NCBI GenBank assembly: GCA_950295325.1
Contig: OX485804.1
Location: 64,698,533 to 64,762,532, forward strand
DNA from: Polytrichum commune
Lineage: Eukaryota; Streptophyta; Polytrichopsida; Polytrichales; Polytrichaceae
Direction: 5' to 3'
DNA length: 64,000 bases
Part shown: positions 2,810 through 50,599 of the stretch, piece by piece
How the letters are laid out: every line of letters begins with the position of its first letter
How positions within the stretch are numbered: position 1 is the first letter of the stretch
Program-made: the position numbers and the translations under genes
Notes under the pieces: model-generated
Told to the model about the DNA's origin: nothing
Databases searched by the model: none
The model's input: only the letters and a program-made list of their open reading frames with translations

Positions 2810-5800
2810 CTGTTATCACAAACAGCAGCAAGAGCAGAAATAAGATAATCAAATGTAACATCTAGACTTACTTAAGCTCACAGCATGAGTTGGGTAAACT
2901 ATCCCACCTTTAATAGACAACTGGAAGAGAAGAATGTGTTCTAGAACTCATGCAAGGCAACAATAACAAGAACAACATTCCTTGACTGACCTTGCATACC
3001 AAGGTAGAAATAATTAAGCAGTGATAAAATGTAAAAGCATATCAGCCATATATTTGAAAATGAGCAATCCCAACTTAGTAATATAGTCAAAATCCCAAGC
3101 TCTACACCCCAAAAAGGAGAACCATGAGCACAGTAAGAAAACACACCTTACAAACTGAAAGGGCAGACTGTATGACATAATTTGCATACTGGTCCTGGAG
3201 AAGCTGGCCCAGACGAGGGCTGGCTGTTAACTCCCGCACCAGGCGTGCCCGATGTTCCTCCACTCCCAACTTCAGACACTTTTCAACAACATTGCTGCTG
3301 AACTTTTGCATTGCCAAAAATGCATAGTTTCCTTCTAGCCTGGCCATTACCTCTGATGATGCCCAACCAGTTTTCAGGTCGAGAATGTATTGCACAACAT
3401 AATTTCTGCAACATGGCAGAAGGAATGTTCACAACGTAAGTTTGAGGTTGCATCATGTAGACTGATTGAGACTAAAAAGCCATTCCATGGAATAAATCTC
3501 TACGTAAAATTCCTGTAAATGCTTAACACTGCTTATGAAATGTACAAAAAATCTGCATCTCTACCACAATATGATAAGGATTCTGCCCTAATGCAATAGT
3601 TCCAACAACATGTCTGACTCTTACCCATAAGGATCTTGTGAAAGGACAAGAGCATGGGTAGCAATTACAGCTACCAAACGCTGTTTTTGAGGGGCAGAGG
3701 CAAAGTCCACACAACGCTGCATGACACAGCACCCATGACGGTGTGTGGATATCTCCACACAATGTGCAGCAGCTGCGTCGAAAATGAACTGCGATGCAGA
3801 GAACCAAGATATGTCATCACAGTTTCAGTATAGTATTTGAAAAAACACCAACTTAGACATGCATCAAAGGTCAGTCTTCAGTGTACAGTTCCAGCTCCTA
3901 GAACATTAACCCTCAAATATTTCCAAATGTATCCTCAATATTTGCTGTAGGGAACTAACCCTAGATAACCTCAACTAACCTGGCTATCTTCATGGCTGAG
4001 CTTCTGGAGACATCGCTGCACCACATGGTTTCCATTCAGATCTTTGATCAACTCAACAACGCCCTCAGTCAGGGCTGTGATGACCATGGTAACCTGCTCG
4101 GGGGACTTCAGTGTTTCAATTAGTTTTTGCACAGCCCGGGTCCTGTAAAACATAAAAATAGAATCAGAATGCTTCTTAAGCCATGAAAGCCATTTCTTGA
4201 GAGGCAAACGAACTAACAATCAACAAAAGAAAACTCTCGTGACAGAAAAATATTTTGTGCACACAGACCACAATTTGATTTACCGCTCTAATTCTACAAT
4301 AAGCTAAAGTACCAGAATCACTGTACAGAACACTGCAAAACACTATTTAGTATCAGTGTTTCCAATAGACAACAAACCCAAACCCCTAAAAGATGGATTC
4401 AACTTCTAAAACCCTAAATGAAGGTTAAGATTTAAATTACACCACTTATAATGAAGGCGCCCATCAAACCCGTCCATTTAGTACTCCTGCATTTTCAACT
4501 ACCTATCAAACCACAACAAACTCACCCATGCATGTTCAGAGAAATTTTGACTAGTTCTCCATCCATAGTCACAACTCGCAAAATGTCCATCCGCTGTGCT
4601 TCATCACAGACCTCCAGCAGCTTCTGGACCAGGTAATTTCCAAAGGGATCCTTCATCAATTCTGTGATGTGGCCAATGATTTCATGAAAGATCTTCTCCA
4701 CATCCTCAGGCCCGCCCTCATCAAACTTTTTCTGCAAAAACCTACACCCATGTTGATCCTTTGCAATCAAATAGATCCGACCTTCAACCTCTTCCAGCTT
4801 CGTATACTTGGGTTGCTGCTGCTGCAGATGATGTGCTGTTGGCAATCTTGGGTCAAATTCCAGTTCGTCCTGGATCGCCCTATGTGACTGAGTGTCCCCC
4901 AGGAAGGGGGAGGAAATATGACCTGAACCTAGTGTCATATGTCCATTCCCATATCCAAGAGCTTGACCATTGGTATGCCCATTAGGGATTCCATCTCCTT
5001 TCCTTCGAATTCCCATAGCAGGAATCGTAGACGTTCCCCCATTACTTGCACGTGGACGTCTCTGAAGAATTTTTTCTGGGAATGCTGGTAGCCTCTCATC
5101 TCTAGTCACTGCAGCAATTCGTGTTGCCTCCTTGACAGACAAAGCTGCTGATTGAGCTGCTGTTCTAGTACTACCATTTGACGGGGAATGCAAAAAAGGG
5201 CAGACCTCACCACGGCTACAATAACCCTGATTATAATACCTGCAAATGCTAGTGGCTGGATTGGTACGAGAACTATCAGGTAACACTAACCCCTGTGCCC
5301 AAAGACCATCCACAACCTGCTGCTGCCGCAACTTCTGCATAGCTTGGGTATGCTGCAACGATGGCACAACCCTAGGGTTGATTGCAGAGGAAACACTCCC
5401 CCTGCCAAAGCCACCAGCATTCTGCGCCTGCAGGGTGGCAAGAAGCTGGATCTGATTTTGGCGCTCCACAAGCTGCTGCTGCAGAATCAACCGTTGCTGT
5501 TGTTGCTGCTGCTGCTGCTTTCTCTTCTCCTCCTCTATCTGGGCATACCTCAGAGCTGCCATTTGTGCTTGCGCAGTCACTTGCATGCGCTGGGCCTCAT
5601 ACAGTGAAGCCACATCATAATCATACGACATCTGCTGCTGGGACGAAGGTGGGAAGAAGTCTGCACTAGATGCCGAGGCAGCAGCAGCAGCCGCAGCTTG
5701 CCCTCGCGCTGCAGCTGCAGCATGCATCGCTTCAAAAACGTCCAGTTGCTGCTGCTGATAGGCATTTGCAACAGCAGATCCAAAAGCGGCCTCCTCGCTC

Positions 5801-6774
5801 CTGGATGTATACGCATTCAACCCTGGGGAGCCCTGTCTCAGCAACTTCTCCACAACCTGAGAGGACACCTGAGGGTAATCTCCTATCCCATTGAACACCC
5901 CATTACTGAGCGCATCAATGCCGCCTGTGGCCTTTCCTCTTGGGAACAGGTTCATCCCGGGTGGTGACCTAGAAGTAGTGTAAGTCTCCAGTGACGCCAC
6001 CGAGCCTCCACCATAAGCTCCAGATCCAACACCAAATGCATCCATGTTGACATACATGCTGTTTGACTCAGCAGGGCTTTGTCCATTCGATAAGCTCCCA
6101 CCACCCAGACCGCCATGGCCACCCAGGGTTAGGTTGTCCACTGTCTCATCCGTGAGGGTCTGCAGTGCCCGGCTGCTGTTCCCTTCAAAATTCAAGTTCG
6201 CAAACGCCGAACTCAAATTCGACTCACCAAACATTTGAGTTTGGGACGAATTCCCAAAGTGGTGATTAGGTGAAGGCTCCCTCTGTTGCTGCTGTGGGTT
6301 TTGCCCCTGCTGCTGCTGCTGTTGCTGCTCTTGTTGCACCTGCTGTTGCTGCTGCTGCTTGTGATGTGCTTCCATTTGCCTATGCTTCCGATGCCTGGTT
6401 CGGGGGCTGTCAAGCGTGAGCCCAGAGAAGAAAGGTGAGAGCTGGGCACTGGCAGCCTTGGGGGACAACACAGACATGTCATTGTACAGATTCCGATTGT
6501 CCATGGGCGGAGGGAGCTTCTTCGCACCCGAGTAGGACTTGTAGAAATCCTCATATTGCTCATCACATCGAATGTCTATGAAAGGTTTCACTGGAACCTC
6601 ATCCTCCCTCAACCCAAAGGTGTGCGCATCTACACTGGATCCATACACACGTTGAAGCTCCTCCAAGTGGGGTGGTGCCGAGGTCGCCCGTGGAATTTCA
6701 TTCGGTGGGTCGGCTGATGTTGCCTCTGGAATCTCGTGCAGGAGCTGCTCAAACTCCTCGTCATCTTGCTCCAT
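2702..6774 (-). CDS. Pumilio-family (PUF) RNA-binding protein with CCCH zinc finger, five coding exons
   Basis: Coding exons on the minus strand are 6774-4526, 4142-3980, 3788-3625, 3405-3147 and 2809-2702. All four introns start GT and end AG (383, 191, 219 and 337 bp), phases fit, and the joined frame is 980 codons plus TGA. The ATG at 6774 has A at -3 and G at +4. Residues 1-660 are a low-complexity N-terminus with Gln tracts (about 139-164, 419-427), Ala and Gly runs, and a C-x7-C-x5-C-x3-H zinc finger (C511, C519, C525, H529). Residues about 664-975 form the Pumilio homology domain with eight repeats. RNA-facing triplets, repeats 1 to 8, are C677/R/Q681, N713/Y/Q717, T751/R/Q755, N788/H/Q792, C824/C/Q828, N860/Y/Q864, S896/N/E900 and N934/Y/Q938. 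By the known PUF code this predicts binding to UGUANAUA-type mRNA elements. The family represses or destabilises mRNAs in the cytoplasm. The start resembles short-leader plant Pumilio proteins, but I do not assign an orthologue. Confidence 0.95.
3147..3405 (-). other. Coding exon 4 of the PUF gene
   Basis: The exon is 259 nt after a GTTGCAG acceptor. It encodes residues 860-945: most of repeat 6, the G-specifying repeat 7 (S-N-x-x-E) and repeat 8. The donor is GTGTGT. Confidence 0.92.
3625..3788 (-). other. Coding exon 3 of the PUF gene
   Basis: The exon is 164 nt after a CATCGCAG acceptor. It encodes residues 805-858 (repeat 5, start of repeat 6) plus two bases of Gly859. The donor is GTAAGA. 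Confidence 0.92.
3980..4142 (-). other. Coding exon 2 of the PUF gene
   Basis: The exon is 163 nt and starts after a TTTTACAG acceptor. It completes Gly750 and encodes residues 751-804 (rest of repeat 3, all of repeat 4). It ends CAG before GTTAGT. Confidence 0.93.
4526..6774 (-). other. Coding exon 1 of the PUF gene
   Basis: This 2,249-nt exon encodes residues 1-749 and the first two bases of codon 750, about three quarters of the protein. It contains the whole disordered N-terminus, the zinc finger, PUF repeats 1 and 2 and the start of repeat 3. It ends CATGG before GTGAGT, so the Gly750 codon is split. Confidence 0.93.
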
Positions 6775-7494
6775 GCTGCCAAACCCACCTGACTCCGTCT
6801 CTCTCTCTCCCCGACACCAATCCCCTCAAAGCTGTCCTTCTGCTCCGTTCCCTGTGCGACTGACCCTCATCGGAAATGAGTCATCCTAACACCGCTCCCC
6901 TTCTTTACTTTACTCCCTTCCCGTTTCCTCTCCTTTCGTTTCTTTCCAGTCCACCTACAAGCCGGGTTTCAGCAGTTTGGTGAGTTTCCCTAACCCGACC
7001 CCCACACATGCAGAGCTTGTTTCGTCGCTCACTACGGTACAGGCAGGAAGGACGACATGAGCAAACCCCCCACCAGCCAAGTAACATGTCCGATTACTCT
7101 ATATGCAAAACTTGGCATTGGACCAACCCCCCCACACACAAATTGGACAACTCTAATTCGATCCCCTGTACCACCACCCCGACTTACCTCACCTGAACCC
7201 CTTCCAAGGAGCAGGCATTCAATGACACCGAGGTAACCCATTGGTTGCCCCACGACTCGCAATCAACACAGCACACACAAGATTAACAATTCCAAGCTTC
7301 CCGGCGACAAAATTCACAAAATATGCACGATAACAAACAAGGTCCACAACAGAACAGGGCAGGAAAGCTGGTCGCCCTCTCATAACAAGGCAACCTTCAA
7401 TACCAAGCCCTCCAATACAAAATTTTGCACAAGAACCGCTACTCCCACAGCAACAAGATAACAAGAAATCGCCCCCCCCATATATAACTATACA

Positions 7495-10629: not shown

Positions 10630-11197
10630 TTATTTGGCCTAATGCCATAGGTCATTGATTGTTTGTGTGAGTAGTTTACTAAGTGTAGTGATATATCTTG
10701 GGAGTAAGGATAATGCTTCAATGTTGAATGTTCCACATGATAGTTGGGCAAGGATATTAGGGGAGTCTTTGGGGATGTTACACATGAATTTTGTGAGTTT
10801 GATGAGGAGTTTATCCAGTTTCTCGATGTATGGGACCAAAAAAAGGCGGCATAAAAGGCATATTCAATGCCCATGCAAATGAATGTATTGAGGTTCTTAA
10901 GCCTTTGTTGTAGTGATACGGGTGATAGTGGTAAGACCATTTTTTTTTGTTTTTTTTCCAACTATAGTGATTTTTTTATGGCCCATTTTAGGGATGGGAC
11001 TAGTCGTATTATTAGGTATGTGTATGGTTCATTTTGTGAGAGGATGGGGAGTTGTTGTTGTTGTTTATAATTAATGTTTTGGACTTTTAGATATGTGGTA
11101 CATATAAAAGGGTTGTAGTTTTGATTTATTGGAGCATCTTGTGATTGCGCATATGTTTATGCCTAGTTCCATGTGTGCCCAATCGAAGTATTATCTT
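10630..11197 (-). pseudogene. LINE reverse transcriptase, thumb and connection part
   Basis: The RT frame resumes beyond the inserted element with YFDWAHMELGINICAITRCS and continues through a degenerate stretch to IEKLDKLLIKLTKFMCNIPK and EALSLLPRYITTL. The latter are typical of the region between RT and RNase H in this LINE type. Two frameshifts are visible near 10840-10960. Confidence 0.8.
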
Positions 11198-11842
11198 CTC
11201 GGTGGGGTCACTAGTGAAAATCGTAGAAACAACGTGCGATACAAAATAAGGTCTAATATATTCATTGTAGATCAATTTTGCAAAAAAAATGTACATATAT
11301 TATAGGGGGTTTTAAAATAGTGAAATATGTTTACATGTAAAATACCATCACATATAATGGCCTCTTTTATCTAGTCAATACATGTACAATAACGTGAAAA
11401 CAATTACTAGGGATAGCAAGTTTAGGGTAGGGTATGTGCTAGTGGATGAAAAGAAGTAATTTTCTATTTGGAAAAAAAAACTTTAATGAATGACTTCGCA
11501 GGCTGGTTGACTTTGAACGTTATTGAACCAACGTATCCAATGTGGAGTTAATGTTCTCTACCTACGTGCCAGGAGGGAAAATTTCAACGCGTTGTTTGAA
11601 TTGCAATCTTCTTTCCAATTTTCTTTGGCAATATAACTAAAATAGGGTATTTTAAAACAATCCTCCCAAAAATGTATAATTACTAATAGAGTGTATTAAA
11701 ATACAAGCATTTACATTTATTTTGAAAAATACCATACCTTATAATCTTTTCTGCAAGGTAAATAGCCCCCCCCCCATAAATAGGTCCTAAGCACATGTGT
11801 ATGTGTTAATATAAGAGGGAGTGACCCCCCCCCCCCCCCGAG
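11198..11842. mobile_element. 645-bp hAT-like element with G/C-homopolymer ends
   Basis: The left end reads CTCGGTGGGGTCACT; the right end, reversed, reads CTCGG, a run of G, then GGTCACT. The flanks are ATTATCTT (11190-11197) and ATTACCTT (11843-11850), an 8-bp target duplication with one mismatch. Removing the element and one duplication brings the LINE RT blocks LNKLR and YFDWAHM back into one frame. An 8-bp duplication is typical of hAT transposons. The interior has no coding capacity, so it is non-autonomous. Confidence 0.8.
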
Positions 11843-11849
11843 ATTACCT

Positions 11850-12402
11850 TAGTTTGTTGAGTTGTGGTTGTATGTGTTTTATGTTGTCAATGAGGATGCT
11901 AGGTCGTTGGCGTAGGTTGTGGTTGTGATACTATTTGGTGAGGTGCTATAAAGTAATATCCTAGTTGATCTTTCTCTAACCATCTAAGTAGGGATTATAA
12001 TAAGATGGTGAAAAAGTATGGGCTCAAGGTGTCTTCTTGGATGGTTCCGCAGCTAATTTGAATGGATGTTGTTGTTGTTGTTGTAAAGTGTGCACCTCGG
12101 AAGGAGGTGGTTGATTCTACGTAAATATTGCTAACTAATTCGATGGCCTCTAGTGGGTGTTTAAGGTATTCCAGCGTGGTTGGTGATCTAGGGAGGCCTA
12201 TGAAGCCAAATGCATTTTTAAAGTCTATGTAAGTTAGATAGATATATTTGCTTGCAAATTTGACGTCTTCTAAAGTGGCGATGAATGCTTGAATTTGTCT
12301 ACCTATATTTCTCATAGGTCCAAAACATTTCTTGGCGATGGTGAAGGATTTCATGTTGTTCACCGAATGTGGTGAGGGCCATGGATTTGTAGCTTGTGAC
12401 AA
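11850..12402 (-). pseudogene. LINE reverse transcriptase, N-terminal and catalytic part
   Basis: Recognisable motifs in order are YIDFKNAFGFI (RT block A, usual DFxKAFD), CGTIQEDTLSPYFFTILL (block B, usual GxxQGDxLSP) and YANDLA at 11914-11903 (block C, usual YADD). The second catalytic Asp survives, but the first is Asn. A frame change follows, then the block DNIKHIQPQLNKLR runs up to the DNA-element insertion. It synthesised cDNA at the target site when active. Confidence 0.85.
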
Positions 12403-12565
12403 TTGTGGGTTGTCATTTTTATGGAGGATTATGGTGATGCTATATTTTCATTAGCTAGGTATTGCTTTATGGTGGTAGCATTTTAGGAACAACATGTACA
12501 TCATGTTGTGGAAGTTGCCTAGTAGGGCTTTGGGGATAATGGGGATACTATCTTATCTGGGGGAT

Positions 12566-24500: not shown

Positions 24501-25160
24501 ATTTCCAAAGTGTTTAATGTAGTCACCTCATGCCCCCCCCCCCCAACTCAACATGGACAATATTTTATGAAGTGATTTTCACAACATTTGGTTTTTATAC
24601 AAAGGAGAATTTTGGCATCAAGCGTAGTTTGACACTTGTAGAAGGGCACTAAGGTTTGAGTTGGGACACAAAATTTTAACTGGAATGTATTTTCCTTGTA
24701 ATTACCAACTACCTTCACTAGTTTGGGCAACACCCCGAACCAAAATATTTTCCAAAAATGGCATTTTCATTCAACAATTAGCACCCAATGAGAGATACCC
24801 ATCATCCAATCAATGAGTTTTTGTCTCTTGTAGAGCATGCACACAAGATTATATTCAAAACAACAAAGTCTCGATCATATTCATTCTAACATATTGAAAG
24901 AAGAACGATCAAGTGTTTTCCAAAACCACAAGATTTAAAAATAAAATCACTAATTACCCCAACTCATTATCTTAAACCTTGCAACAATTGGATCTTCTCA
25001 AATCTTGTTTGAATGATTCTTTTCTTTTCTTTTCCTTATCTTCATTTTGAAGTTAGATTTTAAATACAAATGCTTGACCTAGACCATTTTGGCAATAAGT
25101 GAGCTAAAACGCCCTCAACATCAAAAGTGGTCTAGAACTTCTAAGTGCATCCGCATGCAC
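24500..25160. repeat. Dispersed repeat family, copy 1
   Basis: Words such as CAACACCCC-AACCAAA, AATTxCCCCAACTCA, TTGGATCTTCTCAAA and GAAGTTxG recur in the same order at 31.88-32.46 and 32.54-32.80 kb, and inverted at 57.58-58.00 kb. No domain could be named. Confidence 0.55.
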
Positions 25161-27505
25161 CCAAGTGAAACGATCACTTAAGAAATTTACCCTACTTCTC
25201 TAGGTTTATGAACTATATAATTGCCCACAAGGAGTTGAGGGGTAAGGCATTAGATTCCAAGTTGTTTGTAACTCACATAAGGATTTCTTGAGAAACTATT
25301 TCAAAGGAGAACTTCATGAAAACATGAGAACACACATACACACTTTGGTTTCCTTATACTAAATTTAAAAGTAAAAGGGTTGAGAGTTCATTGTAATCAC
25401 ATTCTCTTTGTTTTGATAATTAAGAAACTTGATTTGATCGGTTGGAACATTGTAACTATAATATGATCTTCAAGTGATCAAATTGTCAAATTATAGCTTG
25501 AGATGCGAACACTTCATAAAATGCATAAGATGATCATTACTAAGAATCCATGAGCGAGCTCTTGGAGACAATACAAATGTTTTAAAACTACATATGAGGA
25601 ACAATATTTGCAAAAGAATGATTAAATTTGAGTGAGATCCTATCATTGCAACTCAAAGCCCCATTTTGAGACAAGGTTGTTATTTGAACTAGCGCAACTT
25701 ACGTTTCTTCCAAAATATTTGTAAAAGTTTCTCTCTCTCTCTCTAAACTATGTTTTTACCATGCCCTAAAAGAAATCTCACAGAACGTAAAACATAACCC
25801 CAAAGGTTTAACTACTTTAGGGTTAGGTAAGTTTTACCTAACAAATATCCACCCTAGATCCGATACTATGCATCTACGGACAAGGATAGTTACCTAATCA
25901 TATGTTAAGTGAAAGGAAACAAGAGAACATCCTTTCAAATGTTAAGCCGCATGAGTAGTTTACCCTTGGTAAATTTTGAGATTAGAGTAAAATTGTGTGA
26001 AAGTGTGGAAGGCGTAGGCTAAAGAACATGTAGAATACTCAAGGATGGTTTGAGTATGTATTGATACAAAATGTACGAGTTTGCCTTGTATGATTGGGTT
26101 CTGTTGTTATTCGCCTCGTGTACGTTACTAACCCTCTCTTTGGATTTGGTTGGTGGCATGGGCACAAGTGAGGCAGACCCTTCACAACCTTGACGGCATC
26201 ATTAGGTTTTGTATTTTCATCTTATTACAAAAATAATATGTGGACAACATTTGACTATGTATTTTGTTATGATAAAGAATACTTAGCATGAGAGGATGTG
26301 AGAGGCAACCTTTGAGGTAAACGTTAGATTTAGTCTTTATGCCTTCTTTTGAAGTTTGACCATGAAAGCCTTGGATTTCATATATCAACATCTAGTAAAA
26401 CCTTAGACATGTGAATGCTCAAAGGTTATTTTCTTTAAATTATTAGACAATACTCCAAGATGAAACAGTGACAAGGACATGATGATAGATATGTAATGAT
26501 GTAGCCTTGAGGGATGGTCCCACCCACCCTCCCGGATTTTACAAAGGAACATGAATATGTAGAAGAATAGTTTGGCCTCTAAATAAGAAGATGTATTTTG
26601 AAAGGTTCATGCTTGAAAATAAGCTTAGATGTATTCAAGAAATTCCTAGCTCTCTCTCTCTCTCATAAACTTATGAATTCTTCAAGTCAATTTCGTTTAT
26701 GTTAAAATTATGAAGCTCATGACGACTTTTTATATGATTGTATAGATGTGGCCTAAAACAAACTTTCACAATATCATAGGAAGGTGAAATGTATTTTACA
26801 ACCAAGACTTCATATATTTTGATTAATTTATAAATTGACGGCGTGAATGACCATTAACGGGTTGAGGGAAGCATAAAACAACACATGTTAATTATACTTA
26901 GACATATGTATCTTATTGGTAATTTCTATTTAGAGTTAGTTGATTATGGTTTAACTCTTGGATAATAATCCTCGTTGGATCTTTCCTCCAATACTTTTGC
27001 ACAACATGTTGTGAGAGCCCCGGCATTCAAAGCCATGGTGTTCTTGTCTCCTTGTTGATTTCCATATGTACTCAATCTTTGGGACCATGCTTTTTTACAA
27101 TACTATCATTTGACCACGTTTACTTGATTAAGCTTAGTTTTCATAACATTACGACTCAACTTCATGATGGTCTCATTCCCAAGAAAAAGATTATGATTAA
27201 AAAATCCTTGATAATTTATAGTTGTTTGCCAAAAAGTCCATAGGAAACAACCCGAGCACTCCCCATAAATGGGGAATCCCTGAATCAAAGGGGAAGTATG
27301 CGCATGTCAAACATGGTCCCATGGAACACATCCCAAGGATTTGTGTAATGTTATATTATAATTATATGTATTAGATGGTTTTATATATGCAGGCTTGTGG
27401 TGTTCAAAGGTGCATCCTTGGCAATGTTGGGTGGCGGCAACATGTGACAATACTCTGGTTAATCTCTCTCGGCCTTGGCCTCGTTAATTTTCCCCAAGTT
27501 GTCCC
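25160..27505. other. AT-rich stretch with no recognised gene
   Basis: Short CT microsatellites lie at about 25731-25745 and 26650-26666. A fragment near 27250-27360 (GGGGAATCCC then ATGGTCCCATGGAA) resembles 48.59-48.70 kb, so another old repeat is present. Confidence 0.5.
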
Positions 27506-50257: not shown

Positions 50258-50599
50258 CTCGGGGGGGGGGGGGGTAGTCATTGGTTGGAGTAGCAATATA
50301 CGTGCGAACAAATGATAGGGTACTTTAAAAACATGGGGGCAAAAAATTATAAATGGACTTAAGAGTAGTATAGGGTATCAAAAATGGCATTGGACATCTT
50401 TAAAGTACTATAGGGTATGGAATAATAGGTAATTTGGAATTATAAGTAATGCAAGCCATTTTTCTATTAACCCAAAGTAGAAATTTACCTAATGATAGGA
50501 TGTGAAAAAAAAATTGAAAGTAATACCCCCCTATAAAATAGTGGTTGTTCGCACCTATATCCTTAACTTTTTAACACACTCCCCCCCCCCCCCCCCGAA
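50258..50599. mobile_element. 342-bp hAT-like element with G/C-homopolymer ends, copy 2
   Basis: The left end is CTCG followed by a G run to 50274. The right end is a 16-base C run (50581-50596) then GAA, so inverted it reads TTCGGGG. GATTCAAA is repeated exactly on both sides (50250-50257, 50600-50607), an 8-bp target duplication. The interior is AT-rich and non-coding. Confidence 0.82.

Follow-up and report, generated by a model that had tools for sequence, protein, structure and literature searches.

The window, the whole 64-kb stretch of Polytrichum commune DNA analysed here, holds two short elements that open with a run of G and close with the inverted run of C (Table 1), and on re-reading the sequence both were found as an earlier note on this DNA had described them, each flanked by an 8-bp direct repeat. 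The first, F1, starts CTCGGTGGGG..., closes with 15 C and GAG and lies between ATTATCTT and ATTACCTT, which are identical at seven of eight positions. The second, F2, has CTC and 14 G at its left end, 16 C and GAA at its right, and an exact GATTCAAA on both sides; this match can be extended by one base (GATTCAAAC), and the resulting ambiguity between 8 and 9 bp is settled as 8 bp by the other copies described below. Runs of at least seven G or C number 24 in the window (12 G and 12 C); three of them are ends of the two elements, ten read TTG(n) or its complement, and long G/C homopolymers seem to be common in this genome. Among window pairs of a G run and a C run 150-15,000 bp apart, an exact 8- or 9-bp repeat was found at the F2 pair only, the F1 copy being outside this set because its left run is short.

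F1 interrupts a sequence that, judged by its look, appears to be a decayed LINE. The earlier note had used the LINE as confirmation of the borders, with a reading frame continuing once the element and one repeat are taken out. A single minus-strand frame does cross the joint ('..NIKHIQPQLNKLR*YFDWAHMELGINICAIT..'), but it meets one stop at the joint itself and the LINE is decayed. A 150-aa open stretch of it has no match in Pfam at E 0.01. Elsewhere in the window lie a gene for a Pumilio-type RNA-binding protein (4522-6825, minus strand), with PUF repeats (E 1.1e-23) and a CCCH zinc finger, and a tRNA-Thr(CGT) predicted by ARAGORN (25118-25210, minus strand).

Table 1. The two elements, their ends and the interrupted LINE, in positions of the window.
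Feature	Position	Strand	Basis
F1 left 8-bp target duplication ATTATCTT	11190..11197	.	sequence and register test
F1 element, 645 bp, CTCGGTGGGGTCACT... to (C)15GAG	11198..11842	+	sequence, copy comparison
Subterminal motif ACGTGCGA, F1 left end	11232..11239	+	sequence, motif comparison
F1 right end, 15-C run and GAG	11825..11842	-	sequence; C run at 11825-11839
F1 right 8-bp target duplication ATTACCTT, one mismatch	11843..11850	.	sequence
Putative decayed LINE part interrupted by F1, 150-aa open stretch	11995..12447	-	ORF, Pfam search
F2 left 8-bp target duplication GATTCAAA	50250..50257	.	sequence
F2 element, 342 bp, CTC(G)14TAGTCATTGG... to (C)16GAA	50258..50599	+	sequence, copy comparison
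Subterminal motif ACGTGCGA, F2 left end	50300..50307	+	sequence, motif comparison
Subterminal motif AGGTGCGA (minus reading), F2 right end	50549..50556	-	sequence, motif comparison
F2 right 8-bp target duplication GATTCAAA	50600..50607	.	sequence

The genome searched comprises 64 contigs that total 407.8 Mb, of which seven measure 42-78 Mb, and a first look yielded roughly 1371 candidates for F1, 1650 for F2 and 513 left and 890 right ends of a third family, F3, found elsewhere in the genome (40 scored each). The two window sites are copies of non-autonomous DNA transposons with many genomic copies, as had been proposed; they do not form one family, as had been proposed too, and are instead two different families having in common their ends and subterminal motifs. 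The pattern CTCGGGGGGGG occurs genome-wide 1428+1445 times, compared with 269+247 for the reversed pattern, and the pattern CTCGGGGGGGN{0,10}GTCAYTRG 459+424 times, compared with none in the reversed control. F3 comes in two types, A (831 bp, seen in L062) and B (1308 bp, in L063). Between the types the ends, 243 and 200 bp long, agree at 97.5% and 99.5% of positions around different interiors, and F3 ends are 73-78% identical to those of F1. The elements of these families are short and non-coding and have inverted ends, a duplication and many copies, like MITEs and other non-autonomous TIR transposons; F3B retains a 120-aa exon remnant.

In F1, F2 and F3 the ends have the form CTCGG(G)n...(C)nCGAG, but they are better recognised by CTCGG(G)n-CACT (CATT in F2) together with the motif ACGTGCGA at about 35-47 bp from the end, which places it some 23-26 bp inside the G run. 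The motif or a one- or two-base variant is present in 11 of the 14 ends compared, which are related and not independent, and is lacking in the left end of F4 and the right ends of L102 and L104 (elements described below); the chance rate for the same degenerate motif is 7 in 1706 75-bp pieces of the window. As assembled, the pure run in 24 F2 copies with strict ends measures 6-16 at the left (median 12) and 2-21 at the right (median 15), the shortest being interrupted runs (right end of L032) as well as short ones. The left end reads CTCGGGGAGG in at least six of 21 F1 copies and in the F1 consensus, and interrupted G-rich ends of this kind (CTCGGGGAGG, CTTGGGGCGGGG, CCCGGGGGGAG) show that the G-rich termini are independent of homopolymers. 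We conclude that the G-rich ends are older than the pure G runs, which are probably a product of slippage in a genome rich in such runs. The long pure G/C run of the original description is variable in length and not a fixed homopolymer, and in F1 it is often replaced by CTCGGGGAGG.

Target duplications were measured with borders set by sequence alone at CTCGG and CCGAG, for which 35 of 54 copies qualify; the other 19, of which 15 are F1, have an end that departs from the strict motif. The expectation that flanks extracted genome-wide would carry 8-bp repeats beside matching ends held: the duplication is exact at 8 bp in 28 of the 35 strict copies (F1 3/7, F2 21/24, F3 4/4), and 31 have at most one mismatch. 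One strict copy matches at 6 bp, while for lengths of 7 and 9-12 bp there is no match. With the right flank displaced by 1-3 bases, 0 or 1 exact matches are left, and when flanks of different copies are paired only 6 of 1190 combinations agree with at most one mismatch. Two of the copies, L105 and L106, are a single insertion duplicated along with its flanks, so that the independent exact duplications number 27 of 34. Most of the 19 copies left out have repeats in a looser, shift-tolerant search, and among nine more F2 copies, each with one departing end, a repeat was seen by eye in eight, including three that occupy the same site, and none was seen by eye in the ninth, L078.

Pairwise identity is 91-96% in F2 (21 copies) and 82-91% in F1, values biased upward since the 20 copies of each family were taken from best matches; among the best 40 scored F3 ends, the left ends are 98-100% and the right ends 99-100% identical, and the movement of F3 looks recent. 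Eighteen of the first 100 places listed for CTCGGGGGGGG were read, namely five candidate pairs and 13 single ends, together with two variant ends of the CTCGGGGGGGN{0,10}GTCAYTRG pattern. The single ends comprise nine F2 copies with one mutated end, one F3, one F4 and two that look like chance; where a G run had no counterpart within the sequence fetched (the first end of L065, L069 and L077), it was taken as chance. Twenty further F3 left ends, classed by script labels where tags were exact and otherwise by eye, are seven of type B, 12 of type A or near it, and one shorter element (L094) that joins A-left to B-right sequence. F3A, F3B and L094, with the same ends and different interiors, would fit internal deletions of a longer element.

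A single F3B insertion, identical in its repeat and flanks, is found on two chromosomes (L105, 1960-3282, and L106, 1241-2564). A genome search with the F3B exon returned at least 22 rows that agree in an 85-residue match and a 104-aa frame, perhaps because one F3B spread as part of a larger repeat; L105 and L106 are the rows read. Likewise, the F2 copies L071, L072 and L073 share the left flanking repeat ATATTGAG, which is also the left flank of L061, and the three are probably one insertion copied together with its surroundings. F4 (L101), which is 2166 bp long, starts with CTTGGGGCGGGG at the left and has an exact 8-bp repeat, CATAATGC, was considered as a long relative and set aside: its interior resembles a TG..CA-bounded insert also present in L050, and we interpret F4 as F1-like, with an insert inside it. 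In L050 this insert spans about 2853-4683 (TGTGAGCCC...CTCACA, ~1.8 kb), with related pieces inside F4, and is possibly a TRIM/LTR-type element.

Longer coding relatives, for which the earlier note had suggested looking, exist for F3, and by the tests run their protein is neither hAT nor MULE, but the copies read are incomplete. F3B contains an open exon of ~120 aa that has no match in Pfam; searched against the genome (150 of 1096 candidates scored) it recovers mostly F3B copies and few longer frames, and the pattern VGGCATGTTCTATATAGG, designed for the parent of the exon, gave 0 matches. The locus L112 carries an intact frame of 1497 aa (P0001), upstream of which lie CCCGGGGGGAGCACT and ACGTGCGA; its left border is presumed from its sequence and is without a duplication. 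A decayed element, L111, is colinear with P0001 at residues 9-465, 461-535, 483-1267 (54%) and 1321-1495, in pieces that lie in different frames, and is 96.3% identical to F3B over 1061 bp, including the right end CCCCCCCGAG. F3B itself codes for P0001 residues 1386-1495 at 36% identity. F3B, which matches both the end of L111 and the C-terminal residues of P0001, therefore arose by internal deletion from an element like L111. At L104 the gene of L112 is accompanied by a right end of F1 type (90% over 206 bp); its left end was not found in the search of the locus. The link between ends and gene is pieced together from copies read in part, L111 up to its right end, L112 from its presumed left border and L104 with its right end. 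The core of the L104 gene has at least 121 matches in the genome (117 of 184 candidates scored), among which at least 16 lie in frames of 1000 aa or longer and are free of stops. F1 and F2 have only short terminal motifs in common with the coding elements and no coding sequence, and P0001 has no match in the window, F1 and F2 included.

The protein is ~1,500 aa long with N-terminal cysteine/histidine clusters. P0001 and its alignments found no credible match in Pfam, NCBIfam, PHROG or the PDB sequences, the best E values (0.038, 0.14, 0.07 and 0.11, respectively) failing the cut-offs where these exist, and the core protein has no relatives in viral and prokaryote collections or plasmids. Four divergent cores are invariant at AEDET, NPL..LPRLV, DGD-RRR and QD-H-GKKL-NP. 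The order DE in a hydrophobic first strand, then G-F, SDG..RR, D..H..K..N and E before FFS.vGG resembles that of P/THAP9 transposases. Both AlphaFold models are of low quality (mean pLDDT 38.9 and 44.3); the better parts of the second (block means 58-84) run helix, AEDET strand, strand, strand, helix, strand ending DGD, an order that fits an RNase-H core, as far as a model of mean pLDDT 44.3 can suggest. Foldseek placed seven Mos1 transposase chains first (E 0.023-0.14), with TM-scores near 0.2 and rmsd near 19, and this ranking is no support for a transposase reading. We read P0001, which keeps AEDET and DGD-RRR, as a putative DDE-type transposase, and membership of the P superfamily is a lead.

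We regard it as probable that F1, F2 and F3 are non-autonomous, MITE-like cut-and-paste elements moved in trans by the ~1,500-aa DDE/RNase-H-like protein of L111, L104/L110 and L112. The putative transposase would bind the subterminal ACGTGCGA near both ends, cut next to CTC and insert the element with an 8-bp stagger. The G run would lie between the cut site and the binding site, where spacing would be tolerated over about 10 bp while the run probably grows and shrinks by slippage. The same protein would serve F1 and F2 as well, because the end signature and the motif are shared.

Several other origins have to be weighed against this. That the elements are hAT MITEs with unusual ends, moved by the hAT transposases of this genome, is improbable, although hAT elements and their MITEs are alike in the 8-bp duplication and in high copy number, and the hAT profile PF05699 gave 1060 first-look candidates (150 scored). 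At 15 hAT loci (L041-L050 and L056-L060, in pieces of 6.8-7.8 kb), which are a small part of the candidates and in several of which element ends were not found, no CTCGG ends enclose the gene, which bears out the doubt about hAT that had been voiced at the outset. hAT ends are of the YARNG type; four of the first ten loci have paired CAGAG/CAGTG ends with 8-bp repeats and a group with 1084-aa frames has CAGGG at the one end seen, whereas the ends of F1-F3 are CTCGG. Comparison by eye of the first 100 listed ends with the hAT matches gave one near pair, a plain F2 copy at L060; L060 and L043, tried as hAT parents, simply lie near F2 and F3 copies. P0001 matches neither PF05699 nor the MULE profile PF10551, and hhalign found no relation of it to hAT and MULE proteins of the genome (probability 0.1 of 100 against seven hAT frames), a weak test as hAT and MULE were likewise unlinked. 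A descent from MULEs with short duplications, with L102 as the parent, is quite improbable. L102 (G000:C2:56922600-56932500) looked decisive, its two ends being of F3 type (82% and 79%) and its interior containing a PF10551 domain (E 1.5e-22, at about 4779-6395) with weak FAR1, and MuDR/MULE elements resemble the present ones in G-rich ends and in foreign gene pieces inside, as in L102. Yet the MULE piece is antisense to the native gene and cut at both sides, and it is common to L107 and L108 at 94-98% identity, CTCGG ends not being seen in their fetched pieces. Since these loci share the piece without the ends, it is foreign to L102, by capture or insertion, and L102 was ruled out as a parent; it also has no 8-bp duplication, and the gene it has in common with L104+L110 and L103 lies on the opposite strand to the MULE piece. 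A MULE search gave at least 142 matches (150 of 271 candidates scored), and at eight further loci (L051-L055, L107-L109) no CTCGG ends enclose the gene. MULE/MuDR duplications are 9-11 bp long, against 8 bp and no strict copy at 9-12 bp here, and the native gene is not PF10551.

It is possible, if short of probable, that the 1,500-aa protein belongs to the P superfamily as a divergent member and that the elements are P-like with altered ends. The P superfamily has 8-bp target duplications, and P, Galileo and THAP9 are further alike in cut-and-paste movement, in binding sites inside the ends (here putative sites some 40 bp from each end) and, by its look, in the motif order of the presumed catalytic acids. 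They differ in their CA-type ends, against CTCGG(G)n here, and in a transposase of about half the present size, and the protein described here has no PDB sequence match. Pfam holds P-element transposase models; none is among the matches up to E 10 of P0001, P0002, P0004 and P0005, in a search whose HMMER filters lose weak matches. Novosib, Zisupton/KDZ and Merlin have 8-bp duplications too and are alike in that length, and the KDZ model PF18758 has no match in the genome, nor in the control genomes. That the G/C runs are assembly artefacts at otherwise ordinary ends is highly improbable: the runs are long and variable in length and most of those in the window lie outside the elements, but the 883 ends genome-wide against zero in the reversed control, and the interrupted G-rich ends, argue for genuine termini. 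Returning to movement by the ~1,500-aa protein, we raise tentatively that the elements belong to an undescribed superfamily, which would be marked by 8-bp duplications, CTCGG(G)n-CACT with ACGTGCGA, a ~1,500-aa transposase outside all known superfamilies and a slipping, tolerated homopolymer between cut site and binding site.

In the titles and opening lines of abstracts of the open-licence literature we found neither families with G-run ends and 8-bp duplications nor this protein, either of which may still be published. A 2022 review places the TIR transposons of land plants in six superfamilies (PMC9033089). If the reading is true, a recently active group whose transposase is recognised by none of the libraries searched would be a seventh land-plant superfamily, or a remote P-like lineage in land plants, and would allow the handling of ends of varying length by a transposase to be studied in nature. 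The thousands of short copies could be filed by an annotator as unknown, or as hAT from their 8-bp duplication.

Some minor observations concern the neighbourhoods of these loci. The hAT loci L041, L042, L043 and L050, with frames of up to 1084 aa, are 95-98% identical over kilobases, and next to their hAT gene runs a long tandem repeat rich in G (GGGGGAGCGGACGG-like); at the MULE locus L054 an F2 copy lies nearby. In L112 the 1497-aa gene is followed downstream, on the reverse strand at 638-123, by a 172-aa frame with no Pfam match, which could belong to the host or be another gene of the element. Beside the element at L103, two reverse-strand frames from 1077 and 1421 encode 233 and 151 aa, the former with a weak resemblance to 2OG-Fe(II) oxygenases (E 0.033).
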